Virus record (IMG/VR): IMGVR_UViG_3300047310_000535
Location: 1 to 24,427 of that record
Length of the DNA: 24,427 nt
Origin: a virus
Direction: 5' to 3' (one strand)
Shown: positions 3,117 to 24,427 of the stretch, piece by piece
Layout of the letters: the number at the start of each line of letters is the position of its first letter
How positions within the stretch are numbered: the first letter of the stretch is position 1
Program-made: the position numbers and the translations under genes
Notes under the pieces: model-generated
Databases searched by the model: none
Told to the model about the DNA's origin: nothing
The model's input: the letters and a program-made list of their open reading frames with translations, nothing else

Positions 3117-3140
3117 GATTGTCCGGAGAAAGAGGATCAC

Positions 3141-3167
3141 GTGAACAATGTAGGCGCATTGTCATGA
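3141..3167 (+). CDS. possible 8-residue leader peptide
   Basis: GTG at 3141 sits 4 bases after AGAGGA (3131-3136), the only good Shine-Dalgarno in this stretch. It opens an 8-codon frame (MNNVGALS) whose TGA overlaps the ATG at 3164 of the sigma-like gene as ATGA, the coupling arrangement used by most genes here. This suggests ribosomes load at the leader and re-initiate on the sigma-like gene. Such a short frame could also arise by chance. Confidence 0.35.
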   Translation: MNNVGALS

Positions 3168-3850
3168 GGAGACGGTACGAACCCGGGGCGCGGGTAGCGC
3201 TCGACCGAGCTCTCAAAACCATCACGCCGGTCGGCGGTTCGTTCGAGGAATTAGCTCAAGCTTGTCTAGACGGCCGAATTACGTTCGAGTGTTTTTACAA
3301 GCAAACGCGTCCCGTGTTGGCGGCAAAAGCGGCCTGGATTCTACGGCGCTGGAAGGCCCCCACGGGTGCCGAGGACGTCGAGCAAGAGATGGCGGTGGCG
3401 GTCTGGCAGAAGTTCGCCGAATTCGATCCTTCGCGTGGTGTTTCGATCGGGCGGTTTTTACTTTATGGGGCGGGAGTTGTCGGCAAAGCGGAAGCCCACC
3501 GCGCCCGCCAGTGCAACAAGCACGGCACGCGCGACAAGAACCCATCGCGGTACGCGGTCCCGTTTTCGTCGATGCGGGGTGTCGATGAAGGGGGATTCGA
3601 TCCCGCCGACATGGTCGTCGCGGAACCGATCCAAGAACGGGTTGCGGAGGTTCGCGCCATACTGGCCCGGTGCAGAACGACGTTCGATCGCTCGATCCTC
3701 GAGGCCCTTGTAGCGACGGGTGGATCGGTGCGGGAGGTCGCGGGGAAGCTGTTCGCCGGAATCGACGGACCGATCGCGACCAGAATGATCAACCAAGCGC
3801 TGATCAATATCGGCTGCACGGTTTCGGACATCGAACGGATGGCGGCCTGA
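3164..3850 (+). CDS. sigma-70 region-2-like protein (putative phage sigma factor)
   Basis: The product has 228 residues from the ATG at 3164. Residues about 50-115 resemble sigma-70 region 2: a TGAEDVEQEMAVAVW segment like the core-binding helix, then FDPSRGVSIGRFLLYGA, close to the FDPxRGxxFxTYA pattern of bacterial sigma factors. Residues about 165-220 (RSILEALVATGGSVREVAGKL onward) could form a region-4-like helix-turn-helix. A sigma-like protein would let the phage redirect host RNA polymerase to its own promoters. A TTG at 3119 would add 15 residues but has no ribosome binding site, so I prefer 3164, probably coupled to the leader peptide. The gene stands alone after the intergenic region. 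It could instead be a non-sigma DNA-binding protein. Confidence 0.6.
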   Translation: MRRRYEPGARVALDRALKTITPVGGSFEELAQACLDGRITFECFYKQTRPVLAAKAAWILRRWKAPTGAEDVEQEMAVAVWQKFAEFDPSRGVSIGRFLLYGAGVVGKAEAHRARQCNKHGTRDKNPSRYAVPFSSMRGVDEGGFDPADMVVAEPIQERVAEVRAILARCRTTFDRSILEALVATGGSVREVAGKLFAGIDGPIATRMINQALINIGCTVSDIERMAA

Positions 3851-4957: not shown

Positions 4958-7372
4958 GTGGTGATTCCGGCGCTGACGACCGCGTTCGTAGAGCAGGACC
5001 AGTTGGTCCTGCTCTACCGGAACGATGCAAACGCCCTGATGCAGCGTCGACTCCCGGCGGAGTGGTCGAGCTTCTACAGGAGGGCCGAGATCGAACCCCA
5101 TCTGCGGGAACTCTCGAGTTCGCGGTTCGTTCGTTCGGTCGCGGACGAGGGCGATTGGGTCCGGATCCGGTGGAGTGACCGATGGGTCCGGGAACGAGCG
5201 TGCTCGCCCGATAGCCCCCTAAGCCGCGCCGGCGTTGTCGCGTTCGAGGCTGATCTTTCACCGGTTCAGCGGTTTCTCGCTGACTCGGGTGCGAAGATCG
5301 CGCGGCCGAATTGGTGCGTGGTCGACTTCGAAACCGACTCGCGGGTATCGCCGCGCGAGGCCGCTATTGGGAATGCCCGCCTGCTCTCGTGGGTCATCAC
5401 GCGCCCGGACCTGACCGACATCACGGGAGTCCTGGAGGCCGATACGGACGAGGCGGAGCGGGATCTCTGGGAGGCGTTTTTTCTCGCGCTCGACGAGTTC
5501 GATCTCGTACTCGCCTGGAATGGCGATGACTTCGACTTCCAGCTGATGCCGGTTCGGGTTCAGAAGGTCCGGGCCCGCGTGAAGGACAAGCGCCGGTGGC
5601 TGTTCCTCGACTACATGGTGTTGTTCGAGCGGATGAACCGGAACGCCGCTGAGTCGGGTGACGAGAAGGTATCGCTGAAGCTGAACGTGGTCTGTGAGGC
5701 CATGATCGGGGAAGGGAAAGAAGAGTTCGATCCTCGCCGGACGTTCGAGGCTTGGGAGGACAAGGGCCGATACAAGTCGCGGGCCGAGATGGTTCGGTAC
5801 ATGCGGCAGGACTCCGCGCTCGTCGTGAAGCTCGACCGGAAGACCGGCTATCTGGCGCTTCACCAGACGATCTCGGAGGTCTGCGGGGTCTTCCCGGACA
5901 GCTACGGGATGAACCCAACCCGGTTCGTCGATGGGTTCATGCTCCGGGTGGCGGTCGAACGCGGGACCCACTTCCCGTCGAAGATCTGGGACCGCGAACC
6001 CGAGCAGCAGTTCGCCGGCGCCTGGGTAATGGAACCGAAGGACAAGGGGTTCATCGAGAACGTTCACGTCGGGGACTTCAAGAGCCTGTACCCGTCCATC
6101 ATGATCACGTGGAACATGTCGCCCGACACGAAGGTCGCGACACCGCCCGGTCAGCGGAGTTCCGAGAAGCAGCCCGAGGGATTCTGCCGGTCCCCCTCGA
6201 ATGGGGTCGTGTTCCGGACCGACATCGCCGGGATGCTGACGGACGCTCTCAAGGAGCTGATCCGGCTCCGCGACTTCTGGAAGAAACGTAAGAGCGAGCT
6301 GCCTCCGAATACGGACGAGTGGCGTGACGCTGACCGGAAGTCGATGGCCTACAAGGTCGCGGCCAATTCGTTCTACGGGGTCGTAGGGTCGATCTACTCG
6401 AGGTTTTTCGATCGCGATATCGCGGAGGGCGTGACGCAGAACGGCGTCTGGTTGATCAAGCGCACGTCGGATGCCGCGGAGCGACCCGGTCCCCATACCG
6501 GTAAGGGCCTCCGGACCACGTACGGCGATACCGATTCACTCTTTATCGTCGGCGGCACCGAACTCGAGTTCGATGCGTTCGCCCGATGGTGCAACGAGTC
6601 CCTCTATCCGGATCTCCTGAGGGGGTGCGGGTGTCAGGAGAACAAGATCTCGTTCGCGTACGAGAAGATGTTCGAGCGGATCGTCATCCTGTCGGCGAAG
6701 AAGTACGTGGGCCGGCTTCGTCACTACGGGTGGGACGCGAAGCGGGGCGATTGGAACTGGGCGACCGACAAGTCGAAGCCCGAAGTGAAGGGCCTCGAGT
6801 GGAAGCGCGGTGACGCGAACAAGATCGCGCGCGCGCTCCAGTACGAGGCGATCAAGATCGTATGCGCACCCGCGCGAGCTGACGCGATGGATCCGGCCCG
6901 GTACGTCGAGGTGGTGGAGTGCTACAAGCGCCACGTTCTCGAGGACCCCCTGACGGTCGACGACGTGAAGCAATCCCGGGCGCTCTCGAAGCGGACCGAC
7001 GAGTACGAGCAGAAACTGAAGAAGGACCAGACGCCGGCGGCGGTTCCGCCACACGTCACGATTGCGCGCTTACTCGAGGAGCGGGGCGAGCAGATCGTGA
7101 TTGGGTCGAAGATCGACTACGTGATCCAGGACGGGTCGAAAGATGAAGGGAATCTGAAGGCGATCCCGGCGTCCGAGTACGACGGGCAGAACGCCGATCG
7201 TCACTACCTCTGGGAGAAGATGATCTGGCCGCCGACTCAGCGACTCCTCGCGGCCGCGTTCCCGCTCCGGGATTGGTCGCAGTGGGACCGGACGCGCCCT
7301 CCGAAGAACCAACAGCTCCTCGAGAAAGCCGGCCAGGGTCGCTTCACGTTCGGACCGAAGTCGGCGCCATAG
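4958..7372 (+). CDS. family B DNA polymerase with 3'-5' exonuclease
   Basis: This is the 804-residue replicative polymerase. The proofreading exonuclease is complete: Exo I D123 and E125 (DFETD), Exo II N188 and D193 (NGDDFD), Exo III Y281 and D285 (YMRQD). Polymerase motif A is D373 with SLYPS at 376-380. Motif B is K466, N470 and Y473 (KVAANSFYG). Motif C is YGDTDS at 522-527, with catalytic D524 and D526. The KKY motif is at 581-583. All catalytic residues are present, so it should be active. No protein-primed (TPR) insert was noted, consistent with use of the primase upstream. It starts at GTG 4958; a second GTG at 4961 is an alternative. It ends 6 bases before the next gene. Confidence 0.95.
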   Translation: MVIPALTTAFVEQDQLVLLYRNDANALMQRRLPAEWSSFYRRAEIEPHLRELSSSRFVRSVADEGDWVRIRWSDRWVRERACSPDSPLSRAGVVAFEADLSPVQRFLADSGAKIARPNWCVVDFETDSRVSPREAAIGNARLLSWVITRPDLTDITGVLEADTDEAERDLWEAFFLALDEFDLVLAWNGDDFDFQLMPVRVQKVRARVKDKRRWLFLDYMVLFERMNRNAAESGDEKVSLKLNVVCEAMIGEGKEEFDPRRTFEAWEDKGRYKSRAEMVRYMRQDSALVVKLDRKTGYLALHQTISEVCGVFPDSYGMNPTRFVDGFMLRVAVERGTHFPSKIWDREPEQQFAGAWVMEPKDKGFIENVHVGDFKSLYPSIMITWNMSPDTKVATPPGQRSSEKQPEGFCRSPSNGVVFRTDIAGMLTDALKELIRLRDFWKKRKSELPPNTDEWRDADRKSMAYKVAANSFYGVVGSIYSRFFDRDIAEGVTQNGVWLIKRTSDAAERPGPHTGKGLRTTYGDTDSLFIVGGTELEFDAFARWCNESLYPDLLRGCGCQENKISFAYEKMFERIVILSAKKYVGRLRHYGWDAKRGDWNWATDKSKPEVKGLEWKRGDANKIARALQYEAIKIVCAPARADAMDPARYVEVVECYKRHVLEDPLTVDDVKQSRALSKRTDEYEQKLKKDQTPAAVPPHVTIARLLEERGEQIVIGSKIDYVIQDGSKDEGNLKAIPASEYDGQNADRHYLWEKMIWPPTQRLLAAAFPLRDWSQWDRTRPPKNQQLLEKAGQGRFTFGPKSAP

Positions 7373-11740: not shown

Positions 11741-13704
11741 TCGTCACCGAGATCGGACTTGAGAATTGGCTCTGCTACCGGGGCCAGCAGGTTCTGGCGC
11801 TGGAGCCGAAAGCGTACTCGATCGTCGCGCGTCGGCAGGACGAAGCGGACCGCTCGAACTGGCAGGGTAAAAGTTCGTTCGTCGAGTCGGTCTTGTTTGG
11901 TCTCTACGGACAGCACCGCAAGGAATACGAGGACGATTGGATCACGGACGGCGAACGGTCCGGTTCGGTCCGTCTGCTGCTAAAAGATGGCGACGAGCCC
12001 ATGACGGTAACGCGTTCGCGCCGGCGCGGAAGTCCGACGAAGCTCGTCGTCCAGATTCCGGGTATCGGCGAGGCGACCGGGGATGAGGCCCAACAGATCA
12101 TATGCGAGCGCGTTGGGCTTTCGCTACGGGACTTTTGCCGCGGCCCGTACGTCGAGCAGAAAAAGACGTCTTGGTTCGTTTCGGCGAAACCAGCCGACCG
12201 GATCGCGATCGTGGGTGAGTGGCTCAGGTTCGCACCCGTCCAGGAGGGCGAGAAGATCCTGAGGGCGAAGGCCGCAGGACTCGCGGATCTTCAGGACGCG
12301 GACCGGTCCGAGCTCAATCGGCTCACGGGGTCCGAACTGAAAGGCGACCCTGGTAGCGACCCGGTCGAGGTCGTGCAGGCTTCTTGGCAAAAAGCACTCG
12401 AGGATGCGTCCCGTTCGCTCGATGCCGCGGCCCGGGTAGTCCTGGAAGTATCGGGTCGTCGCGACGCAGCGGTCGCGGCCCGGACCGGTCAGCGCGACCT
12501 TGCGAGATTCCGAGAGGTGGTTGATCAAGGGACCGCGATGGCGACCGAGCTCGCCGCGATGCCGTCCGAGCTCGAAGTCACTACCGCCATCACGAAGGCA
12601 CGGGAGGCGCGAGACGCGTCGTTGGCGGTCGAGCGAACCCTTTACCAGGAGGTAAGGTCGAAAGACCAACTTTCCCGCGGGAAGTTCGACGGTGTATGCC
12701 CGGTTGCCGGCTGTGCGTGTCCGATCGAGAAACAGATCAATGCCGATAGGGCAGGGAATCTGAAGCTGCTCGAGGACGCGTCGGCCCGGTACGGGGTCGC
12801 GAAGAAACAGGCGAGCGACGACGCAACCACGTTGGTTCGCACAGAGGCCGTGCTGCGGAAGCGCGACGACCTGAAGGGACGAATCGAGGCCCATCGGGTA
12901 GAGGCACGACGGCTCAAACCGATAGCGAGAGCCGCGGCCGAACGGGAAGGCGCTGTCGATCTGACGGCACTCGACGATGAGCTCGGGAGCGTGAAGATCG
13001 TTGAGTCGGAAGCGCGCGAACGGGTCTGGCAGGCCAAACAGGCACTCGATGGGTTTGCGGAGCGGAAGCGACGCGCTGACGAGCTGGTTGGCCGAATCGC
13101 TGCCCGGGAAAAGGAACTCGCGACCGCGCGCGAGGCGCTTGCGATCTTTGGTCGCGGTGGAGCCCAGCGGAGGATCGCGGAGGGCGTACTCGGTGCGATC
13201 CAGGACGGGGCGAACGGGATGCTGGCGGACTGCGGCATGAGGCTCCGGATGGAGGTCCGGTGGGGGCACGAGGGCAAGGGTCTAGCTGATTCGTGTGAGG
13301 CCTGCGGGACTCCGTTCGGCAGAAGTGCCCGCGTGAAGGAATGCGCGCGCTGCGGGACCGCTCGCGGCCACAACGTCGAGCACAGGCTCGACCTAAAGCT
13401 TTCGGACAAGTCGGGGGGCGCGGATGATCTTTGCGGGATCGCGTTCCAACTATCGGCTGCCCGTTGGCTCCGCCGGGACCGAAGTGCGGCGTGGTCGACC
13501 TGCTTCATCGACGAACCGTTTGGGTCGCTCGACAGCGCGAACCAGCGGTCGTTATCGGCACACGTCGCGTCTCTTCTTTCGAGCCGGTACGGGTTCCGGC
13601 AGGCGTTCGTCATCACGCACCGACCCGAGACGAACGATGCTTTCCCTGGGAGGATCGAGATCGTCGGGACCGACCGAGGGTCAACCGCTCGGGTAGTGGC
13701 GTGA
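11737..13704 (+). CDS. SbcC/Rad50/gp46-like SMC-family ATPase
   Basis: The product has 655 residues from GTG 11737 (GTGA overlap). ATPase halves sit at both ends. The N-terminal P-loop is NWQGKSS at 41-47, followed by SFVESVLFGLYGQHR. The C-terminal half has an ABC-signature-like SGGADDL segment near 560, Walker B FIDEP at 590-594 (D592, E593) with GSLD after it, and a VITHRPE H-loop. Between them lies a coiled coil with a zinc-hook-like apex at C321, C326 and C328. An additional CxxC pair set (C520, C523, C536, C539) lies just before the C-terminal ATPase half, where most Rad50/SbcC proteins have no zinc ribbon. The P-loop lacks the usual GxNGxGK form but keeps GKS. It is the predicted motor partner of the SbcD-like nuclease. 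Confidence 0.88.
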   Translation: MIVTEIGLENWLCYRGQQVLALEPKAYSIVARRQDEADRSNWQGKSSFVESVLFGLYGQHRKEYEDDWITDGERSGSVRLLLKDGDEPMTVTRSRRRGSPTKLVVQIPGIGEATGDEAQQIICERVGLSLRDFCRGPYVEQKKTSWFVSAKPADRIAIVGEWLRFAPVQEGEKILRAKAAGLADLQDADRSELNRLTGSELKGDPGSDPVEVVQASWQKALEDASRSLDAAARVVLEVSGRRDAAVAARTGQRDLARFREVVDQGTAMATELAAMPSELEVTTAITKAREARDASLAVERTLYQEVRSKDQLSRGKFDGVCPVAGCACPIEKQINADRAGNLKLLEDASARYGVAKKQASDDATTLVRTEAVLRKRDDLKGRIEAHRVEARRLKPIARAAAEREGAVDLTALDDELGSVKIVESEARERVWQAKQALDGFAERKRRADELVGRIAAREKELATAREALAIFGRGGAQRRIAEGVLGAIQDGANGMLADCGMRLRMEVRWGHEGKGLADSCEACGTPFGRSARVKECARCGTARGHNVEHRLDLKLSDKSGGADDLCGIAFQLSAARWLRRDRSAAWSTCFIDEPFGSLDSANQRSLSAHVASLLSSRYGFRQAFVITHRPETNDAFPGRIEIVGTDRGSTARVVA

Positions 13705-14237
13705 TCGATTCCCGTTCAAAAGGCGCGAAGGCGGAGCTCGATGTCTGCCGCACGTTCGGAGATTGGTGGGGGCAGGTCGAGCCCGGGTGTATCTTCGTTC
13801 GCTCGCCCGGGAGCGGCGGCTGGGGGAACGCGAAGTCACGTGGTGAATTCGAGGCGTCCGGCGACATCATGACGTCTGCGAAGCGGTTTCCGTTCTGCGT
13901 TGAGGTAAAGCACCGCGAAGGGTGGGCTGAGTCGACGTTTCGGTCGGGCCGCCCCAGTCCGGTCTGGGGATGGTGGCGCCAGTGCCAGAGGGCTGCCGAC
14001 GAGATGGGGCGAGTTCCGATGTTGTGGTTTCGAAGGAATCGCGAAGCTTGGCGCGTAATGGTTCCGAGCGATTACGCGGGAGGTGGGTTCGTAACGATCG
14101 GTGGGGAAGGGTTAGAACCGAGTCGGTGGAACCCACGCCTGCTTCGTCGGCGTGGCGTCGATTACGGCAAGCGAGTTCCTGTTTGGTTCGGCGCCATTCA
14201 GCTCCTGACATGCCCCCCAGCAAGGTTCGCCCGGTAG
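13701..14237 (+). CDS. PD-(D/E)XK nuclease, Holliday-junction-resolvase-like
   Basis: The product has 178 residues from GTG 13701, overlapping the SbcC-like stop. The start resembles Hjc-type resolvases: SRSKGAKAELDV with E12. Then come FVRSPGSGGWG, D55 in SGDIM, and E68-V69-K70 in FCVEVKHREG, giving the E...D...ExK pattern of PD-(D/E)XK endonucleases. Tryptophan- and arginine-rich segments follow (WGWWRQCQRA, PMLWFRRNREAWRVM). It would cut branched DNA made by the recombination proteins upstream or debranch DNA before packaging. A restriction-type or repair nuclease of the same fold is the alternative. It overlaps the next gene by 28 bases. Confidence 0.65.
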   Translation: MIDSRSKGAKAELDVCRTFGDWWGQVEPGCIFVRSPGSGGWGNAKSRGEFEASGDIMTSAKRFPFCVEVKHREGWAESTFRSGRPSPVWGWWRQCQRAADEMGRVPMLWFRRNREAWRVMVPSDYAGGGFVTIGGEGLEPSRWNPRLLRRRGVDYGKRVPVWFGAIQLLTCPPARFAR

Positions 14238-14908
14238 CGAAGGGTAAGAAAAAGGATGCGGTTCAGTCGTTCGAAGAGAATTGGGCGCTCGCGGATCTGA
14301 AGCCCCACCCGAAGAACTATCGGTCACATCCGCAGGAACAGGTCGACCACATCGCGGCGTCGATCGGCCGGTACGGGATCTATCGCCGGGTCGTGGTGGC
14401 GCGGGACGGGACGATCCTGGCCGGGCACGGCATTGCGGAAGCGGCGCGGAAGCTCGGACTCGAACAGGTGCCGGTATTCCGGCTCGATATCGAGCCCGAT
14501 TCGCCCGCTGCCCTCAAGGTCATGACGGCCGACAATGAGCTCGGGAGGTTCGCGGAGTCGGACGACCGCGCGCTGACGGAGCTGCTTCGCCAGGTGAAGA
14601 ACGAGGATGAACTTGGTCTCCTCGGCACCGGGTTCGACGACCAGATGTTGGCGGGGCTCCTGATGGTAACGCGCCCCACGTCCGAGGTCGCGACGTTCGA
14701 TGCCGCGGCCGAGTGGGTTGGGATGCCCGAGTACGACCAGGGAGAACGCCAAGTGAAGCTCGTTGTGTCGTTCGCGTCCGAAGCAGACCGCGACGAGTTC
14801 GTTCGAAAAGCCGAACTTCGGATCGCGAAAAAGGTTCACGGGACCTGGGGGGCTCGATGGCCTTCCGTTGAAAATGAGGACGTCGGGGGGCTGAGGTTCG
14901 AGACGTGA
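14210..14908 (+). CDS. ParB-fold (ParB/Srx-like) protein 1
   Basis: The product has 232 residues from ATG 14210. Residues about 28-92 carry the ParB N-terminal nuclease-like fold: LKPHPKNYRSHPQEQVDHIA, a GIYRRVVVARDGTILAGHG core, and the motif GHGIAEAA at 72-79 corresponding to the phosphate-binding GERRxxA of ParB. There is no ParB-type helix-turn-helix or partner-binding domain, so a classical partition role is unlikely. The C-terminal half (VKLVVSFASEADRDEF) recalls extensions of phage ParB-like proteins. It directly precedes the glycosyltransferase gene (GTGA overlap), and a second ParB-fold gene follows the sugar enzyme. Free-standing phage ParB-fold proteins have been linked to nucleotide binding or DNA cleavage; which applies here is unknown. 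Confidence 0.75.
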   Translation: MPPSKVRPVAKGKKKDAVQSFEENWALADLKPHPKNYRSHPQEQVDHIAASIGRYGIYRRVVVARDGTILAGHGIAEAARKLGLEQVPVFRLDIEPDSPAALKVMTADNELGRFAESDDRALTELLRQVKNEDELGLLGTGFDDQMLAGLLMVTRPTSEVATFDAAAEWVGMPEYDQGERQVKLVVSFASEADRDEFVRKAELRIAKKVHGTWGARWPSVENEDVGGLRFET

Positions 14909-15804
14909 ACCCCCTTTACCCGGTGTACGTGATCTCGAAGGGTCGGGCCGAGCGATGCATGACGGCTCGGTTCCTCAGGCGAGATGGGGTGCCGTTCAGA
15001 CTCGTCGTTGAGCCGCAGGAGCGGGACCTTTACCTGAAGCACGGCGCTACCGCAGAAGAGATTCTCGAGACTCCGTTCAGCAATCTTGGAAAGGGAGGCA
15101 TCCCGGCGCGGAACTTCGTCTGGGAACACTCAGCCGCCACTGGGGCCGAACGCCACTGGATTCTCGACGACAACATCTCGGGGACCTACAGGCGTTGGAA
15201 GGCTCGTAAGATCCCGTGTAGCTCCGGTCCCGCACTCGCGACCTGTGAGCGATTCGTCGACCGATACCAGAACGTCGCGATCGCGGGTCTCAACTACTTC
15301 ATGTTCAGCGCGAACCGCACGGTTCAGCCGCCGTTCTATCTCAACGTCCGGGTGTACTCGTGCCTCTTGATCCGGAACGATCTCCCGTACCGGTGGAGGG
15401 GTCGATACAACGAAGACACCGACCTCTGCCTTCAGGTCCTGAGCGGCGGGTGGTGCACGGTTCTGTTCAACGCGTTCCTCGTCTGGAAGATGACGACTAT
15501 GACGATGAAGGGCGGCAACACCGCGGAGCTCTATCAGGGGGACGGTCGCCTCCGAATGGCGAGGTCGCTCGAGAAGGCATGGCCCGGGATCGTCGAGACG
15601 AAGCGCCGGTTTCAGCGCCCCCAACACGTCATCAAGGGGGCCTGGAAAGGGTTCGACACTGCCCTGAAGCTGAAGCCGGGAATCGATCGCGAGGCACTCC
15701 CGGCGGTTGATGAGCTCGGGTTCGAGCTCATTCAGTCGAAAGCGCCGAAGTCGCCGGAGGTTCGGAAGATGATCGAAGGACGAGCGAAACCGAGGGCCCG
15801 ATGA
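14905..15804 (+). CDS. TET-associated-type glycosyltransferase (TAGT-like)
   Basis: This 299-residue protein starts at GTG 14905. Its sequence fits a GT-A-fold family found in phages next to TET/JBP-type base hydroxylases. Recognised parts are YPVYVISKGRAER at the start, LVVEPQE, a GKGGIPARNFVWEHS block and HWILDDNI at 84-91 with the metal-binding DD (88-89). These are followed by GLNYFMF, IRNDLPYRWRGRYNEDTDLCL (E170, D171, D173) and TMTMKGGNTAELY. Such enzymes are proposed to move a sugar from a nucleotide-sugar onto hydroxymethylated bases in phage DNA. It overlaps the sugar-nucleotide enzyme downstream by 4 bases. No base hydroxylase, methylase or hydroxymethylase is visible in the window, so the acceptor is unproven. 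A virion or host-surface glycosyltransferase is less likely given the motif match. Confidence 0.75.
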   Translation: MNPLYPVYVISKGRAERCMTARFLRRDGVPFRLVVEPQERDLYLKHGATAEEILETPFSNLGKGGIPARNFVWEHSAATGAERHWILDDNISGTYRRWKARKIPCSSGPALATCERFVDRYQNVAIAGLNYFMFSANRTVQPPFYLNVRVYSCLLIRNDLPYRWRGRYNEDTDLCLQVLSGGWCTVLFNAFLVWKMTTMTMKGGNTAELYQGDGRLRMARSLEKAWPGIVETKRRFQRPQHVIKGAWKGFDTALKLKPGIDREALPAVDELGFELIQSKAPKSPEVRKMIEGRAKPRAR

Positions 15805-16766
15805 GGGCGATCGTCACCGGTGCGGCCGGGTTTCTGGGGTCTCATCTTTGCGACCGACTGCTCGCGGAGGGGCTTGAGGTCGTCGGGATAGACAACCTCA
15901 CGACGGGAAGTGAACGGAACCTCGAGGCTGCTGAAAAAAGCGGGCAGTTTCGTTTCGTAAGGGGGGACGTACGCAACCTCCCACCGTCGTTTTGGCAATT
16001 GTTCGGTTCCAGGTCCCTCGACTTTTTATTCAACCTCGCGTGCCCCGCTAGCCCGGTTCACTATCAGGCGGATCCGTACGGAACCCTGATGACGTGCGTG
16101 CTGGGGGCCTCGGAAGCCGCAAACGCGGCGCGGACGACGGGATGCCGGGTCATCCACGCGTCGACGTCTGAAGTCTATGGGGACCCGCTCATTCATCCCC
16201 AACGGGAGTCGTACTGGGGAAACGTGAATCCGGTTGGACCGCGGTCCTGTTACGATGAGGGGAAGCGGGCCGCCGAGACGCTTCTGCGCGACGCATCCGT
16301 GATGTGGGGAATCGACGTCCGGATCGCGAGAATCTTCAACACGTACGGCCCCCGGATGGCCCTGAATGACGGGCGGGTCGTTTCGAACTTCGTCCTTCAG
16401 GCGCTCTCGGGAAAGCGCCTGACCGTTTATGGCGACGGAACCCAGACGCGTTCGTTCTGCCACTGCTCCGACCTCGTCGATGGGTTGTGGAGAATGGCGA
16501 CGAAGCAACCGGGGTTAGGTCCCTTTATTGCCAATCTGGGAAACCCGGGTGAGTTCACAATCGAGGAATTGGCGGCAATCGTTTCAGAAGTAACCGGAGC
16601 ACCGCTCAGGACCGTAACGGAAGCCCTTCCGGTCGACGACCCGAAGATCAGGAGACCCGATATCGCGCTTGCGTCATCAGTCCTAGGGTTCCGCCCGACA
16701 GTGCCGCTACGGGAGGGGATCCAGACCGTAGTGGACGACTTCCGAAAGAGGCTTGGGAAAGCATGA
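15801..16766 (+). CDS. UDP-glucuronate decarboxylase-like (UXS) NAD-dependent SDR enzyme
   Basis: This 321-residue extended short-chain dehydrogenase would convert UDP-glucuronate to UDP-xylose with bound NAD. The Rossmann motif TGAAGFLGS spans 6-14 and the acidic D31 follows the second strand. Blocks typical of UXS are visible: LACPASPVHYQ, STSEVYGDPLIHPQ, YWGNVNPVGPRSCYDEGKR with catalytic Y151 and K155, RIFNTYGPRM, DGRVVSNF and TVYGDGTQTRSF. The ACPASP and SEVYGDP blocks favour UXS over generic NAD-sugar epimerases such as UDP-glucose 4-epimerase, though the two are close. Length matches the soluble bacterial enzyme. It is coupled by ATGA to the glycosyltransferase before it and the ParB-fold gene after it, so its product is the obvious candidate donor sugar. 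Confidence 0.82.
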   Translation: MRAIVTGAAGFLGSHLCDRLLAEGLEVVGIDNLTTGSERNLEAAEKSGQFRFVRGDVRNLPPSFWQLFGSRSLDFLFNLACPASPVHYQADPYGTLMTCVLGASEAANAARTTGCRVIHASTSEVYGDPLIHPQRESYWGNVNPVGPRSCYDEGKRAAETLLRDASVMWGIDVRIARIFNTYGPRMALNDGRVVSNFVLQALSGKRLTVYGDGTQTRSFCHCSDLVDGLWRMATKQPGLGPFIANLGNPGEFTIEELAAIVSEVTGAPLRTVTEALPVDDPKIRRPDIALASSVLGFRPTVPLREGIQTVVDDFRKRLGKA

Positions 16767-17443
16767 TGGAAAAGCAGGAGAAGAAGTTTGAGATCAAGTT
16801 GTTACCGGCGAGTTCGCTCGTTCCGGCCCCCTACAACCCGCGGAAGATATCGGCGGATGACTTCGAGCTCCTGAAGGACTCAATTCGCGAGCACGGGCTC
16901 GTCGAACCAATCGTGGTCCAGAAGTCGAACAACATGATCATCGGGGGGCATCAGCGCCTCAACGCGTTCGTAGAGGTCGAGCACGAGCAGGGGGTGAAGA
17001 ACCCGAAGACAACGTGCTTCGTTCTTGATTGCGACGACGCGACCGCCAAGCGTCTGAATCTCCGGTTGAATCGAATCGGCGGTGAGTTCGATCAAGATAA
17101 GCTTGGGCAGTTGTTCGAGTCAGAAGACTTCCCGGAGGGGTTCCGGTTCGAGGAGCTCGGGTTTTCGGCGAAGGAGATCGAGCGGGTCCTCAAGACGGTC
17201 GCTCCGCCGGCGCTCGACGACCCGAAGCCCGCGACGTTCGGGCGCTCCGTCACACTGAGCCTCGAGTTCGGCGACATCGAGGTCCGGGACCAGGTGAAGG
17301 AGTGGCTCATCGAGCGCGCGAAGCTGACGCAGAAGCGGACCGGCGATGTCGTCCAGGAGATGATCCGGAAGGGCGCGAAGCGGGAACCAAAAGAGCGAGC
17401 CGCCCCGAAGGGAGCCTCACCCACCGATGGTGCCGATCAATAG
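16763..17443 (+). CDS. ParB-fold (ParB/Srx-like) protein 2
   Basis: The product has 226 residues from ATG 16763, overlapping the UXS-like stop. It has a clear ParB nuclease-like domain at residues about 10-100: LLPASSLVPAPYNPRKIS (NPRK 25-28), SIREHGLVEPIVV, and the phosphate-binding loop GGHQRLNA at 61-68. The middle part (KRLNLRLNRIGGEFDQDKL) is typical of phage ParB-like proteins linked to DNA methylase or modification genes. A helical, lysine- and arginine-rich C-terminus follows (VVQEMIRKGAKREPKERAAP). It is only distantly similar to ParB-fold protein 1, so this is not a recent duplication. Its job is unknown; DNA or nucleotide binding is likely, and nuclease activity is possible. Confidence 0.78.
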   Translation: MMEKQEKKFEIKLLPASSLVPAPYNPRKISADDFELLKDSIREHGLVEPIVVQKSNNMIIGGHQRLNAFVEVEHEQGVKNPKTTCFVLDCDDATAKRLNLRLNRIGGEFDQDKLGQLFESEDFPEGFRFEELGFSAKEIERVLKTVAPPALDDPKPATFGRSVTLSLEFGDIEVRDQVKEWLIERAKLTQKRTGDVVQEMIRKGAKREPKERAAPKGASPTDGADQ

Positions 17444-19644: not shown

Positions 19645-19986
19645 ATGCCCCTGATTCCGCGAGGTCGACACCAGGAGGACGCTCAGATCGTCCACCCGTT
19701 GGCGAACCCGGTTTGGGTCGAGCGCACCCGTTGGGTAGTGGGGTTCCTGGTACGGGCGCGAGAATGGTCCGCGCTCGTCGCTCGCGCCCGCCAGGAAGGC
19801 GTTCAGGAGGCGATGCTACGCCAGCTCGTCGCGGCCCTTGAGGAGCTTGGCGAGGCTGAGGCGGTCCGGCATGGCCGTAGGGTGTTGTGGCGGCTCCGGG
19901 TCCGGCGGGAGCGCGAGTGGGCGGTCCCGCTGCCGGACGAGGAAGAAGAGAAAAAAGATGTCGCGACGTCCCCTGATCCTACTTGA
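19645..19986 (+). CDS. putative winged-helix DNA-binding protein
   Basis: The product has 113 residues from ATG 19645, behind CAGG. Residues about 38-90 have the layout of a winged helix: WSALVARARQEG, then EAMLRQLVAALEELGEAEAV as recognition helix and turn, then a short wing RHGRRVLWRLR. The rest is a basic start and an acidic tail (DEEEEKKD). It may bind DNA, possibly in packaging or late regulation. The call is by eye and the family is not identified. Its end overlaps the HAD gene by 29 bases. Confidence 0.5.
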   Translation: MPLIPRGRHQEDAQIVHPLANPVWVERTRWVVGFLVRAREWSALVARARQEGVQEAMLRQLVAALEELGEAEAVRHGRRVLWRLRVRREREWAVPLPDEEEEKKDVATSPDPT

Positions 19987-20524
19987 TTGCGATGGTCCGC
20001 TCGCGGACTTCGACAAGCGGATGCTCGACCAGGTCTACCGGGACACCGGGATCCGATACAGTCCCGCCGACATCACAGAATGGGGATTCGGAAACCTACC
20101 GGGGTGGGAGCGGGTCCAGAAGCTCGCGTGGGAGCGGGCTCGCGAACAGAACTTCTGCTTATCGATCGAACCCGTCGCGGGAGCGCTCGAGGGACTCGGG
20201 GAGCTCCGGAAGATCGCGGACGTCGAAGTTCTGACGAGTCCCCTGCACGGGAACCCGACGTGGGTTCACGAGCGCGACGAGTGGCTTCTGCGTCACTTCG
20301 GGTTTCACCACGGCGACGTACATCATTGCCGGAAGAAGTTCCGGATGGTCGGTGACTATCTGGTCGACGACCATCATCCGCACGTCGAGAAGTGGGCGGC
20401 CGCGCATCCCGCCGGTACCGGGATCGTCTGGGATAAGCCTTTCAACCAAGCGTGGCAGGGCGATCGTTGTCTTTCGTGGCCGCACTTGGTTCAGGTCATT
20501 TGGGAGCGGTTGCTTCACCCGTAG
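19958..20524 (+). CDS. HAD-family 5'-(deoxy)ribonucleotidase-like phosphatase
   Basis: The product has 188 residues from ATG 19958, behind a purine-rich GAAGAAGAG stretch. HAD motif I is LLDCDGPLADF with nucleophile D10 and acid D12. Motif II is in LTSPLHGNPTWV, and motif IV is VDDHH near 140. The SPLHGNPTWVHERDEWLLRHFGF region resembles the NT5C-type deoxyribonucleotidases, which remove the phosphate from dNMPs. It would tune or drain nucleotide pools and fits the MazG, dNMP kinase and dCMP deaminase genes downstream. It overlaps the previous gene and ends 3 bases before the large terminase GTG. A phosphatase for another small substrate is possible. Confidence 0.7.
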   Translation: MSRRPLILLDCDGPLADFDKRMLDQVYRDTGIRYSPADITEWGFGNLPGWERVQKLAWERAREQNFCLSIEPVAGALEGLGELRKIADVEVLTSPLHGNPTWVHERDEWLLRHFGFHHGDVHHCRKKFRMVGDYLVDDHHPHVEKWAAAHPAGTGIVWDKPFNQAWQGDRCLSWPHLVQVIWERLLHP

Positions 20525-20527
20525 GGC

Positions 20528-22234
20528 GTGTGCCCCAATAGGATCGTGGAGAATCCAACCGGGGACCTCTCGAAGGTCGACCAGTACAACCTCGTCCGGG
20601 CCCAGATAGCGGCCCGTGCGCTCGAGGCGTCTCGCGATCCGTGTTCGTTCATCAGCTTCGTCATGAAGCCTGAAGAAGAGTCTCGCGTTGGGGCTGACGG
20701 TGAGCATCAGCGGTTCTTCGATAGCCGTAATCCACTCGATTGCGTACGGGTTCCGCCGCACCAAAAGGTCACGGTCGAGTTCGCGCTTCACCACCCGTTG
20801 TCGGTCGTGATGCTTCCGGCGGACCACTCAAAAACGACCACGATGTCGATGCTGGGCCTCTTTCGGCTCCAGCGGGATCAGAGCCAGCGCGGCGCGGTCG
20901 TATCGGCGACTCAGACGCAGGCCGAGAAGGTCCTGAGGATCGTCAAAGACTACATCGAGGGGAGCTGGCGGCTTCGGGCAGTCGCGCCGAACCTGATGCC
21001 GTCGACCCGTCACGGCGACCCCTGGACCCAGACCGCGATCGTCGTCGAGCGACCGCCCGGCATCAAGGATCCATCGCTCGTCGCGCTCGGGATGGACGGT
21101 CCCATCATTGGGTCGCGCCTCGACTGGATCGTCGTCGACGACATCCTGACGCCCGAGAACACGCTGACGCAGGAGCAGCGTCAGAAGACGCTCAAGTGGT
21201 TCTTCACGGCGGTCGTGTCGCGCCTCGTGAAGGGCGGCACGATCGTGGTCTGCAATACGGCGTTCCATCCTGAGGACCTCCTGCACGAGCTCCGGAAGCG
21301 CGGGTTTCCGACTCTCCGGATGGATGTCCTGGGGAACGTGTACGTGTACGGCGATACCGACTTCGGGCTCGAGGGGAAACCGGGGGCTGATGATCTCCGG
21401 GACGCGACTCCCCGGGACGGGCCTGCGATTGAGGCAGGAGCCCTTAGGCTCGTCGGGAACGATCGTGAGCCGGCTGGCCGCCGAACCCTTTGGCCGGACC
21501 GTTACGACGAAGAGCGGGTCGAGCGGGACCTTCGGAAGAATATCCAGTTCAACCAGCTGTACCTGAATCTCCCGCGCGACGACGAGCAGGCGATGTGTAA
21601 AGCCGAGTACGTCGACCGCTGCAAGGAAGTCGCGAGGCTTTTCGGGATCGACGCGATGGTGTCGGGGGGGCCGCAGTTTCAGGACCGCCGGAACGCCTAC
21701 ACGTTCACGGGTGTCGACCTCGCGGTCGGGCGCGGTGAGGAGCACGACTTCACGAGCCTCACGACGATCGAGGTCCGGCAGTCAGGTCACCGGGTCGTAC
21801 TCGATGTCGACTACGGTCGTTGGGCCGGCCGCGAGATCGTTCAACGGATTCATCGGAAGCAGCGCGATTACGACTCCGTCGTGGCGGTCGAGAACAATGC
21901 CAGCCAGGACTTCCTGCTTCAGTGGGCGCTCGATCAGAACGTTTCGCTCCCGATCATGCCGTACACGACCGGGCGCTCGAAGGCGCATCCCGAGTACGGG
22001 ATCCCGGGGATCTTCGTCCAGATGGCGAACGGCGCGTGGGCGTTCCCGAACCGCGGCGGGGTCTGTCATCCCAATATCCAACGGCTGATCGACGATTGCC
22101 TCTACTACGTGCCGTCCAAGCACACGGGGGACGTCCTGATGTCGCTCTTTATCGCGCACGAGATCGCGAAGAAGTTCGGGATTCCGGACGCGCCCGGAGC
22201 CAGTCCCGCCGGAACCAACATCATGACCCGATAG
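20528..22234 (+). CDS. terL: terminase large subunit (packaging ATPase-nuclease)
   Basis: This 568-residue motor cuts concatemeric DNA and pumps it into the prohead. The N-terminal ATPase has an unusual P-loop-like segment, MLPADHSKTT at 95-104, with K102 in the Walker lysine position. It also has Walker B WIVVDD at 200-205 and a coupling-motif candidate VVCNTAFHPED. The RNase H-like nuclease has acidic residues D397 (GVDLAVG), E455 (VAVENN) and D535 (GDVLMSL), in the expected order and spacing. Length is normal. Start is GTG 20528; GTG 20546 behind AGG is also possible. A 13-base half copy of the palindromic element is read here as QRGAVV. Confidence 0.9.
   Translation: MCPNRIVENPTGDLSKVDQYNLVRAQIAARALEASRDPCSFISFVMKPEEESRVGADGEHQRFFDSRNPLDCVRVPPHQKVTVEFALHHPLSVVMLPADHSKTTTMSMLGLFRLQRDQSQRGAVVSATQTQAEKVLRIVKDYIEGSWRLRAVAPNLMPSTRHGDPWTQTAIVVERPPGIKDPSLVALGMDGPIIGSRLDWIVVDDILTPENTLTQEQRQKTLKWFFTAVVSRLVKGGTIVVCNTAFHPEDLLHELRKRGFPTLRMDVLGNVYVYGDTDFGLEGKPGADDLRDATPRDGPAIEAGALRLVGNDREPAGRRTLWPDRYDEERVERDLRKNIQFNQLYLNLPRDDEQAMCKAEYVDRCKEVARLFGIDAMVSGGPQFQDRRNAYTFTGVDLAVGRGEEHDFTSLTTIEVRQSGHRVVLDVDYGRWAGREIVQRIHRKQRDYDSVVAVENNASQDFLLQWALDQNVSLPIMPYTTGRSKAHPEYGIPGIFVQMANGAWAFPNRGGVCHPNIQRLIDDCLYYVPSKHTGDVLMSLFIAHEIAKKFGIPDAPGASPAGTNIMTR
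20887..20899 (+). repeat. half copy of the palindromic element (in terL)
   Basis: GCGCGGCGCGGTC is identical to the right 13 bases of the 20-base element at 2241, 11580 and 18757. It is read in the frame giving RGAV, as in copies 2 and 3. With only 13 GC-rich bases, chance is possible. Confidence 0.5.
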
Positions 22235-22265
22235 CGGTCCGCGCCATCCCTCGACCGGAGGCTGG

Positions 22266-22841
22266 ATGGAGACGATCGCGGACAACTCAAAAGCGTTTTG
22301 GGATGCGTTCCAGGACGAGAACGCCCGATGGGCAACAGCAAACTTCCCGGGTGCGATCGGGCACCCCGAACAACCGATGGTTGGGATCTTCGAGGAACTC
22401 GGGGAACTCGCGGAGGCGATCGAGCTGAAGGACCGCGACAAGGCGGTCGACGCTACCGCCGACGTCGCGATTTACGCGATCGACTTCTGTAACAAGCTCT
22501 CGATTTCGGCCGCCGAAGTCTTTGCGGAAGCAGCCGCGAGTGCGGCCGCGGATGACGTCGACGAGGAGCAGGAGTCGTCGGTCTTCAGCCGTCTGATGGC
22601 ATTGGTCGGGCGTCTTTCGCATCACTGGCTCAAGAAAGAGCAACGGATCCGTCGGAACGAGGACCACGACCTCGGTGCTCGCAAAGCTCTCGTCGGAATT
22701 CTGGCGATCGCGTGGGACGTTCACGACGAGGTTCGGCACGAACCAACCTGCACGTATCCCGAGACTATCTGGGGGGTTTGGCAACGAATCGTCTCGAAGC
22801 GCGATTGGGCGAAGTACCCGGGGAATGGAGGTCCACGATGA
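22266..22841 (+). CDS. MazG-like nucleotide pyrophosphohydrolase
   Basis: This 191-residue protein has the all-alpha NTP-pyrophosphohydrolase signature. A WATANFP segment and HPEQPMVGIFEELGELAEA carry E43, E44 and E47. Then come D62 and D66 in VDATADVAIYAIDF, giving the metal-binding ExxE...D/E..D pattern of MazG-type enzymes. These hydrolyse NTPs or dNTPs to monophosphates and pyrophosphate. Phage versions are thought to act on dNTP pools or on alarmones. ATG 22266 follows GGAGG (22257-22261) in a 31-base gap after the large terminase, so this may start a new translation unit. It is coupled to the dNMP kinase gene by ATGA. The C-terminal 100 residues are helical and not assigned. Confidence 0.75.
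   Translation: METIADNSKAFWDAFQDENARWATANFPGAIGHPEQPMVGIFEELGELAEAIELKDRDKAVDATADVAIYAIDFCNKLSISAAEVFAEAAASAAADDVDEEQESSVFSRLMALVGRLSHHWLKKEQRIRRNEDHDLGARKALVGILAIAWDVHDEVRHEPTCTYPETIWGVWQRIVSKRDWAKYPGNGGPR
22827..22831 (+). promoter_or_regulatory. ribosome binding site of the dNMP kinase gene
   Basis: GGAGG lies 6 bases before ATG 22838, inside the end of the MazG-like gene, and fixes the kinase start. An upstream in-frame start at 22712 would bury 42 residues in the MazG-like gene. Confidence 0.75.
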
Positions 22842-23494
22842 AGCTCGTCGGAATTTGCGGGAAGGCCAGCTCAGGCAAAGACACGCTCGCGGACTTTCTC
22901 GTTCAGAACCACGGGTTCGTAAAGGTGAGCTTCGCGGACCCACTGAAACGCATTTGCCGCGAAGTTTATGCGTTCAGCGATCGACAGCTCTGGGGACCGA
23001 GCGCGATGCGGAACGCTCAAGACGCCCGCTACCCTCGTCCGGGTCTCGACCCCGGACACCTGACGCCGCGACTCGCGCTTCAGATCCTCGGGACCGAGTT
23101 CGGCCGGTACTGCTACGACAATACGTGGCGCGACTACGCGCTCCGGATCGCGAAGCGTCTGCTGACCGAGCAAGAAGTCGCGTACACGAAGGAGCGAGGA
23201 CTCGAGCAGCTTTTCGATATCAACGATCGACCCTACGGCGAGGTACAGGGGGTCGTGATCCCAGACGTTCGGTTCCGAAACGAGGTCGGCGGGATCAACA
23301 ACGCACAGGGTCTATGCGTGCGGATTACGAGACCGGTAGAGGGACTCGTCGGCGCGGCTGCCCAACACGTTTCGGAAACCGAGCAGGACGGGATTCCGGC
23401 GGAGTTCTTTACGTCGTTCTACCAGAACGCCGGAACGCTCGAGGATCTTGCGGCGTACGCGCGGCACGTCGCGGGCCTCATGGAGGAGTTTTGA
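22838..23494 (+). CDS. deoxynucleoside monophosphate kinase (T4 gp1-like)
   Basis: The product has 218 residues from ATG 22838. The P-loop GKASSGKDT (8-16, K14) sits at the very N-terminus, followed by VKVSFADPLKRICREVY, as in phage dNMP kinases of the T4 gp1 type. A lid and substrate region follows (LTPRLALQILGTEFGR, NTWRDYALRIAKRLL), and then a DVRFRNEV segment typical of these kinases. It phosphorylates dNMPs to diphosphates. T4 gp1 is known to accept the modified hm-dCMP as well as dTMP and dGMP, which makes this gene relevant to the proposed base modification. Whether this enzyme accepts a modified substrate is not visible in the sequence. Confidence 0.82.
   Translation: MKLVGICGKASSGKDTLADFLVQNHGFVKVSFADPLKRICREVYAFSDRQLWGPSAMRNAQDARYPRPGLDPGHLTPRLALQILGTEFGRYCYDNTWRDYALRIAKRLLTEQEVAYTKERGLEQLFDINDRPYGEVQGVVIPDVRFRNEVGGINNAQGLCVRITRPVEGLVGAAAQHVSETEQDGIPAEFFTSFYQNAGTLEDLAAYARHVAGLMEEF
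23482..23487 (+). promoter_or_regulatory. ribosome binding site for the TTG-started gene at 23491
   Basis: GGAGGA ends 3 bases before TTG 23491. The spacing is short, but the site supports this start, which overlaps the kinase stop as TTGA. Confidence 0.6.
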
Positions 23495-23847
23495 AACTCT
23501 CGGATGCCGTCCGGATCCTCGAGGAGCAGCACGAGCAGCACGCGGCGCGGCAGCAGGAACTCCTGACCCGCAATGGAGAACTACTCGAGCGGGCCCGTCG
23601 GGCCGAGCAGGGACAGCAATCGTTTCAGGATCTCGCGATCGCGATCCTCACGAAGTGCCCCGAGCTCGGCGACGTCGTCACGGCACTCGACAACTACTAC
23701 CAGGATGCGTCGGCTGACAACTACAACGAAGTCGCGCTGACGCGCTCCGAAGACGCCCGTTCGTTCATCCGACTCTGCCGGGTCGCGTACGCGAAGGAAC
23801 CGGCTGACCCGAGGACACTGCGGGATCTGGCGGAGGCCGGCGCGTGA
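23491..23847 (+). CDS. hypothetical coiled-coil protein
   Basis: The product has 118 residues from TTG 23491. The N-terminal half is a glutamine- and glutamate-rich helix with heptads (VRILEEQHEQHAARQQELL, NGELLERARRAEQGQQSF), probably a coiled coil. The C-terminal half is a mixed, more globular segment (LGDVVTALDNYYQDASADN). No family is recognised. It is embedded between nucleotide-metabolism genes with 4-base overlaps on both sides. Confidence 0.6.
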   Translation: MKLSDAVRILEEQHEQHAARQQELLTRNGELLERARRAEQGQQSFQDLAIAILTKCPELGDVVTALDNYYQDASADNYNEVALTRSEDARSFIRLCRVAYAKEPADPRTLRDLAEAGA

Positions 23848-24062
23848 CGTTCTGCGCGACGTTCCTCCACGCGCCTTTTGGGCAACCAACCGAAGTGATC
23901 GGTGAGTGGGGACTGTGGTCGGTTCCGGCGCTTGGTGAGGTCGTGACGCTCTCGCGGGACGGCGGGGAATCAGCTTGGTTCGTCGTCCGGGTCGCGCATC
24001 ACGTCGGGAACGAGATCGGTCACAGCATCGACGTATTCGTCGAGCCGGCCGCGTTTGGCTGA
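23844..24062 (+). CDS. small hypothetical protein
   Basis: The product has 72 residues from GTG 23844 (GTGA overlap). It looks like a small beta barrel by eye (LWSVPALGEVVTL, AWFVVRVAHHV, HSIDVFVEP), a layout frequent in small uncharacterised phage proteins. No catalytic residues are evident. It ends 11 bases before the deaminase gene. Confidence 0.5.
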   Translation: MTFCATFLHAPFGQPTEVIGEWGLWSVPALGEVVTLSRDGGESAWFVVRVAHHVGNEIGHSIDVFVEPAAFG

Positions 24063-24073
24063 AAGGAAACGAG

Positions 24074-24427
24074 ATGGAGAAGCGTCCGGGTTGGGCCGAG
24101 TACTTTATGGGGATCGCGCGAGAGGTTTCGAAGCGCGCGACCTGCGACCGACTTCACGTCGGGGCCGTGATCGTCCGGGGTCACAACATCCTGGCGACCG
24201 GCTACAACGGTAGCGTCGTCGGCGAACCGCATTGTGACGAAGTTGGGCACGACATGGAGGACGGGCACTGCGTTCGGACCGTCCACGCCGAGGCGAACGC
24301 GATCTGCCAGGCCGCCAAACACGGCGCCCGGATCGATGGTTCGGCCCTATTCACGACCGCGTTCCCGTGTTGGCCCTGCTTCCGGCTCGCGCTCAACGCC
24401 GGCGTCCGGGCCGTCGTGTTCGGGAAT
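24074..24427 (+). CDS. dCMP deaminase-like protein (3' partial)
   Basis: The first 118 residues are present and the frame is still open at the window end. It matches zinc-dependent dCMP deaminases: WAEYFMGIAREVSKRATC, VGAVIV, ATGYNGS and HCDEVGHDMEDGHCVRTVHAEANAI. The catalytic H71-A72-E73 and the zinc-binding P98-C99-W100-P101-C102 are all visible. It converts dCMP to dUMP, the precursor of dTMP and of modified thymidines. AAAGGAA precedes ATG 24074. Fewer than 50 residues are probably missing. Confidence 0.9.
   Translation, partial: MEKRPGWAEYFMGIAREVSKRATCDRLHVGAVIVRGHNILATGYNGSVVGEPHCDEVGHDMEDGHCVRTVHAEANAICQAAKHGARIDGSALFTTAFPCWPCFRLALNAGVRAVVFGN

Follow-up and report, generated by a model that had tools for sequence, protein, structure and literature searches.

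The viral DNA analysed in this work, the entire IMG/VR virus record IMGVR_UViG_3300047310_000535 (24,427 bases, referred to below as the window), carries on its plus strand a four-gene operon composed of a gene for a ParB-type protein (ParB1, 14210-14908), a TAGT (TET-associated glycosyltransferase) gene (14905-15804), the gene of a predicted UDP-glucuronate decarboxylase or UDP-xylose synthase (UXS, 15801-16766) and a second gene for a ParB-type protein (ParB2, 16763-17443). We propose, with a probability of about one half, that a ParB-assisted TAGT adds xylose, or a pentose made from xylose, to phage DNA. The set ParB1-TAGT-UXS would then constitute a phage glycosylation operon, in which UXS would convert UDP-glucuronate of the host to UDP-xylose and the GT-A-type TAGT would take UDP-xylose or a derived pentose as donor. 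ParB1 would serve TAGT as accessory subunit: the C-terminal domain of about 65 residues would dock to or complete TAGT, and the ParB/sulfiredoxin-fold domain would bring TAGT to the DNA. The product would be pentose-bearing phage DNA, the sugar probably shielding it from nucleases. The observations underlying this proposal are the family assignments, the operon, the conserved catalytic residues, the tight link between TAGT and a domain of ParB1, and the recurrent pairing of TAGT with UXS and UDP-glucose dehydrogenase genes.

All three junctions of the operon are 4-bp overlaps of stop and start codons: GTGA at 14905 (ParB1/TAGT), ATGA at 15801 (TAGT/UXS) and ATGA at 16763 (UXS/ParB2). An earlier reading of this DNA from its letters alone, in the following the sequence-only reading, had described TAGT and UXS as fused by translation coupling; the stop/start overlap exists, but the two are separate overlapping genes of 299 and 321 codons and do not form one protein. 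Since the same overlap is found at the ParB1/TAGT and UXS/ParB2 junctions, the operon is wider than the two genes of that reading.

The TAGT glycosyltransferase and its ParB partner

TAGT encodes a 299 amino acid protein of predicted GT-A type, matching PF20691 over the entire profile (positions 1-205 of 205, E=1.2e-43, 149.9 bits against a curated cut-off of 27.5) and phrog_842, annotated as 'beta-glucosyl-HMC-alpha-glucosyltransferase' (E=5e-37). The sequence blocks for which it had originally been assigned to the TAGT family are all present, at residues 34, 67, 85, 169 and 198, and the comparison with hidden Markov models places the protein inside this family, of which it is, by profile, a member. 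An AlphaFold2 model built from 38 homologues has a pLDDT of 88.7. In Foldseek searches the best match of the model, with a TM score of 0.81, is an unnamed phage protein of 890 amino acids; phage models named TAGT give query-normalised TM scores of about 0.5-0.75, and solved GT-A enzymes, for example COLGALT1 and majastridin, are resembled only weakly. Searching solved structures with TAGT, as a single sequence or as a profile, gave no significant match, and NCBIfam holds no equivalog for TAGT, UXS or ParB1.

Five residues of TAGT are invariant across the 38 homologues (D88, D89, E170, D171 and D173). The pair D88-D89, followed by a nearly invariant N90 (15166-15174), is located after strand 83-88 of the model and is proposed, by analogy to GT-A enzymes, as the donor and metal site. 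The NEDTD motif at residues 169-173 (15409-15423), which holds the other three, is proposed as the catalytic-base region by analogy to GT2-type enzymes. The ratio of non-synonymous to synonymous substitution rates between the window and a close relative is 0.02 for TAGT and 0.13 for UXS, indicating that both genes are maintained under purifying selection. The scan of bacterial genomes returned 11 matches, every one on contigs of metagenome-assembled genomes. Tandem TAGT pairs within one operon are found in L059 (4452-6097) and in Vibrio phage Kuja (L103, 5578-8266); such tandem genes may add two sugars sequentially.

ParB1 is a 232 amino acid protein with two domains. The N-terminal domain is, by profile and by fold, of the ParB/sulfiredoxin type: a profile of 28 ParB1 homologues matches Spo0J/Noc/ParB structures (6sdk, E=4.3e-10) and Foldseek retrieves ParB-N structures, the match of the single sequence to Pfam being below cut-off (E 0.019). 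Its closest phage relatives are the ParB-methyltransferases, which are DNA methyltransferases, and this kinship points to DNA. The C-terminal domain (residues 165-232 approximately, 14702-14905) is recognised by the signatures W-x-G-[ML]-P and W-[FYW]-P and is the strongest new result of this work. Neither the ParB partner nor this domain had been part of the sequence-only reading.

Upstream of TAGT a ParB-family open reading frame (ORF) is present in 79 of 80 viral-contig loci, mostly with overlapping start and stop codons, and the sole locus lacking it begins 90 bases into its contig. The C-terminal domain itself, which we term the TAGT-linked domain, is present in 79 of the 80 TAGT loci, in 11 of 12 UXS loci bearing a TAGT and in all 16 other TAGT records (106/108); in the 68 control loci without TAGT it is absent. 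Both TAGT loci missing it are cut by contig ends. The domain model was trained on ParB C-termini only and extended once with new matches, and as the training set came from the 80 loci, the more independent part of the count is 27/28 against 0/68. When the TAGT-linked domain of one homologue (L078) was compared to 50,697 phage records, nine matches were obtained, each directly upstream of a TAGT domain in the same orientation. Weak matches to the domain model occur in a few cultured phages (L100, L101). The isolated domain has no match in PHROG, and its stand-alone versions belong to no Pfam family.

The TAGT-linked domain is found as the C-terminus of ParB proteins, as a separate small ORF (L108, L146, L173, L193) and fused to TAGT (L174, POP12), while on one bacterial metagenome-assembled contig (L189) ParB, TAGT-linked domain and TAGT share one open frame. 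In L076 the domain is kept and the N-terminal part is strongly diverged. The idea that a ParB is always required had to be rejected, as L108, L146, L173, L174 and L193 carry the adaptor-like domain without a ParB-type domain. The TAGT-linked domain, by its distribution, accompanies this clade of TAGT obligatorily, which makes it likely that the domain docks to TAGT or takes part in catalysis.

UDP-xylose synthase and the predicted donor

The 321 amino acid UXS has as its best solved relatives the structures of human UDP-glucuronate decarboxylase (4gll and 2b69, E~4e-88, about 299 bits), the next protein scoring 151 bits. Ten catalytic and signature residues have been tabulated for the human enzyme: Lys151, Tyr147, Thr118, Tyr84, Glu120, Arg144, Arg277, Asn176, Ala79 and Ser119 (PMC12820599). 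The window protein keeps ten out of ten (A83, Y88, T122, S123, E124, R148, Y151, K155, N180 and R284), and the blocks previously quoted for it are present at residues 80, 123 and 151. No NCBIfam model scored above cut-off. As judged from homology to human UXS1 and from these residues the protein is a UXS, nearer to the characterised UXS than to other epimerases or dehydratases, in agreement with the identity first given to it.

UXS is found in 23 of 80 TAGT loci and in several unrelated gene orders, which include TAGT-UXS, UXS-ParB-TAGT, UXS-x-ParB-TAGT, methyltransferase-ParB-TAGT-UXS, domain-UXS-TAGT and TAGT-domain-UXS. The 38 TAGT-bearing records contain 17 genes of the epimerase family, never more than one per record; 15 are UXS and two are of the type seen in L068 and L070, and by locus coordinates all 17 adjoin TAGT. 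Records with UXS as the lone epimerase gene reach 192 kb, and by a rough estimate chance alone would put six out of six lone epimerase genes within 3 kb of TAGT with a probability of 1e-6. In a tree of UXS sequences the distribution of TAGT-linked members takes seven label changes to explain; well-supported branches force at least two of these, while many inner branches are weak. In one lineage (L146, L155, L167 and L168) the gene after UXS encodes a UDP-glucose/GDP-mannose dehydrogenase, as scans for PF03721/PF00984 show in L146 and L167; together the two enzymes would complete the path from UDP-glucose over UDP-glucuronate to UDP-xylose. UDP-xylose is thus well predicted from gene content as the donor for TAGT, as had been suggested from the window genes only.

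In L068 (689-2446) and L070 (2196-3953) a 585 amino acid ORF fuses TAGT to a class I methyltransferase domain and is overlapped by a following NAD-dependent epimerase/dehydratase gene. Stand-alone methyltransferases related to this domain adjoin TAGT in L078, L048 and L169. The TAGT-linked methyltransferases suggest sugar methylation or tailoring.

Acceptor and alternative explanations

DNA is the likely acceptor of TAGT, as can be argued from the assignment of the T2/T6 TAGT, which is described as adding the second glucose to glucosyl-hydroxymethylcytosine (PMC13216743), and from the kinship of ParB1 to the ParB-methyltransferases. Against it stands the search for enzymes preparing an acceptor group, which was centred on the relative G001 (IMGVR_UViG_3300046837_000396, 96,181 bp). 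Identity of G001 to the window is 99.7% in the first 13.7 kb and 95.0% thereafter; as it begins and ends with the same 127 bases, G001 is treated as complete. It has no match to thymidylate synthase/hydroxymethylase (PF00303, positive in control genomes), to cytosine C5-methyltransferase (PF00145) or to the 2-oxoglutarate oxygenase family PF13640. Tet_JBP gave no match in G001 and none above cut-off in any of the 53 records that include it, the control genomes likewise giving none. No GT-B-type first DNA glycosyltransferase is found when the ORFs called in G001 and the window are matched to Pfam, a weak negative since many G001 ORFs match nothing. Canonical bases offer no hydroxyl for glycosylation and, since no maker of one was found, the acceptor group is the main gap in the proposal.

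In the records searched, C5-methyltransferase is present only in G002, a distant relative of 89 kb, G015 and G026. A Tet_JBP match below cut-off in G017 proved at its site to be an ordinary 2-oxoglutarate oxygenase (PF13640), and the only thymidylate-synthase-type gene found is a partial copy with a stop in G045. Vibrio phages 1.076.O and 1.124.O are cultured examples that combine the adaptor-like domain with TAGT and lack a thymidylate-synthase gene. A further 50 ORFs of G001, mostly structural genes, gave matches to only three Pfam families. Because so few ORFs matched and the Tet_JBP controls were negative, a diverged acceptor-making enzyme could hide in G001. A more tentative possibility is a DNA glycosylation needing no known acceptor-making enzyme, in which an adaptor- or ParB-guided TAGT, with ParB as the targeting subunit, would place xylose on a base or another group of DNA, either unmodified or prepared by an undescribed enzyme. 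If true, such a route would represent DNA hypermodification of a new class and would account for some of the phages with a solitary TAGT.

The failure to find a base-preparing enzyme in G001 would also fit ParB1-TAGT-UXS xylosylating a protein of the phage, such as one of packaging or of the virion, in place of DNA. The operon lies a few genes ahead of the terminase genes in the window, and a terminase or portal gene is nearby in many homologous loci. We consider a protein acceptor unlikely, as the assigned TAGT acts on DNA (PMC13216743) and the ParB1 partner has its ParB-type domain in common with DNA methyltransferases.

UXS may, on another account, have entered the operon as a gene of metabolism or of surface glycans, with TAGT using UDP-glucose of the host. 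No UXS is present in 57 of the 80 TAGT loci, so that xylose is not the donor for the whole TAGT family; in the converse sample TAGT is near 13 of 80 viral UXS loci and absent from the fetched flank of the other 67, so that UXS must have other uses. UXS as a general feature of viral genomes is therefore partly true: UXS alone proves nothing and it is the pairing with TAGT that counts. Within the operon UXS has the weakest codon-usage score in G001 and a somewhat lower GC content at third codon positions. The recurrence of UXS beside TAGT in several gene orders as sole epimerase gene of its record, the rough chance estimate for the lone epimerases and the label changes forced in the UXS tree make this account rather improbable.

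There is a small chance that tailoring enzymes of host or phage make the actual donor from UDP-xylose or from its 4-keto intermediate, UDP-arabinose and an O-methylated pentose being examples. This would accommodate the methyltransferases beside or fused to TAGT in L068, L070, L078, L048 and L169, which are weakly similar to models of sugar O-methyltransferases, and the arabinose on the DNA of RB69-type phages (PMC6024577, PMC13390438), but no 4-epimerase or comparable methyltransferase is seen in the window operon.

The sequence-only reading had TAGT glycosylate 5-methylcytosine oxidised by TET/JBP after a cytosine methyltransferase; the name and history of the family and the C5-methyltransferase of the distant relative G002 speak for it, but with Tet_JBP above cut-off in none of the 53 records (controls being negative too), with neither a C5-methyltransferase nor a thymidylate-synthase-type hydroxymethylase match in G001, and with a family name that also covers the TET-independent second-sugar transferase of T2/T6 (PMC13216743), an oxidised methylated base carrying a sugar finds no backing here, and we hold it highly improbable.

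Relation to known systems and neighbouring genes

Returning to ParB1-TAGT-UXS as a putative DNA-pentosylating operon, its nearest known counterpart is the beta-glucosyl-HMC-alpha-glucosyltransferase of phages T2 and T6, assigned as a DNA-directed enzyme of GT-A fold (PMC13216743), the window TAGT falling in PF20691 and PHROG 842. T6 differs in having hydroxymethylcytosine, a first glucosyltransferase (alpha-GT) and UDP-glucose as donor; here neither of the first two was found, and TAGT is accompanied by UXS and ParB1. Phages RB69 and NP attach arabinose to 5-hydroxycytosine (PMC6024577, PMC13390438) and have in common with our system a pentose on phage DNA and phage-encoded sugar-supply genes, UXS being discussed there merely as a possible route. 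They depend on GT-B transferases and on 5-hydroxy-dCMP from a thymidylate-synthase relative, neither of which was found here. The Shewanella phage Thanatos has a pentose-like sugar on the cytosine of its DNA and an enzyme producing UDP-xylose in vitro, which is a pyrophosphorylase acting on xylose-1-phosphate instead of a UXS, and it carries a thymidylate-synthase-type gene (PMC12838424). Krischvirus SAP poses a parallel puzzle, its cytosines being glucosylated without a recognisable synthase or transferase (PMC13390438). For the single components, the human and bacterial UDP-xylose synthases (EC 4.1.1.35) show full-length homology and the ten signature residues, whereas the window copy, of predicted activity, belongs to a phage operon; the phage ParB-N DNA methyltransferases (phrog_498, for instance in Gordonia phages) have the ParB-N domain in common with ParB1, which differs in joining it to the TAGT-linked domain and in pairing with a glycosyltransferase.

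In none of T6, RB69/NP and Thanatos does TAGT occur together with UXS or ParB; the literature searched contains no report of such a pairing, which is weak evidence. We file ParB1-TAGT-UXS as a variant of phage DNA glycosylation not described before, with DNA as putative acceptor. A 2026 survey found that 288 of 753 phage genomes bearing glycosyltransferases have TAGT homologues and no alpha- or beta-GT, and called their function undefined (PMC13216743). For one sub-group of such phages a donor, UDP-xylose, can now be predicted, and ParB1 with its TAGT-linked domain is a candidate accessory subunit for in vitro TAGT assays. As the usual TET or hydroxymethylase partners were not found, the acceptor becomes a testable question. 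If the proposal is right, the type of sugar could be read from the genome sequence, which would help to predict the nucleases, type IV restriction systems and glycosylase defences resisted.

The last gene of the operon, ParB2, encodes a 226 amino acid protein with a ParB_N domain (PF02195, E=1.5e-7; phrog_620 and phrog_498), in which no match to the adaptor-domain model was seen. Close to the operon, at 13694-13701, identity to the close relative L003 falls sharply from 99.7% to 95.0%, which is a recombination boundary adjoining the operon; L003 has in addition about 200 extra bases between the SbcC-like and PDDEXK genes.

Elsewhere the window holds replication genes (DnaB, primase, family B polymerase, RecA-like and SbcCD-like), followed by terminase genes and a nucleotide-pool cluster. 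The latter (19958-24427) includes an NT5C 5'-nucleotidase, a weak MazG-like protein, a dCMP deaminase and, on the plus strand at 22838-23494, a deoxynucleoside monophosphate kinase (PF21448, E=4.7e-10; phrog_139, E=1.5e-36). Phages with modified bases often carry a set of this kind, but so do phages without them. The family B DNA polymerase (4958-7372) is only about 23-26% identical to polymerases of cultured phages among the matches listed, and by this comparison the window phage is without a close cultured relative in the phage collection. A D12-class N6-adenine DNA methyltransferase is encoded in G001 (L083, 18942-19775), outside the range of the window. Two sigma-70-like factors were also noted, one in the window (3119-3850) and one in the same relative (L083, 7091-7912), again outside the window range.

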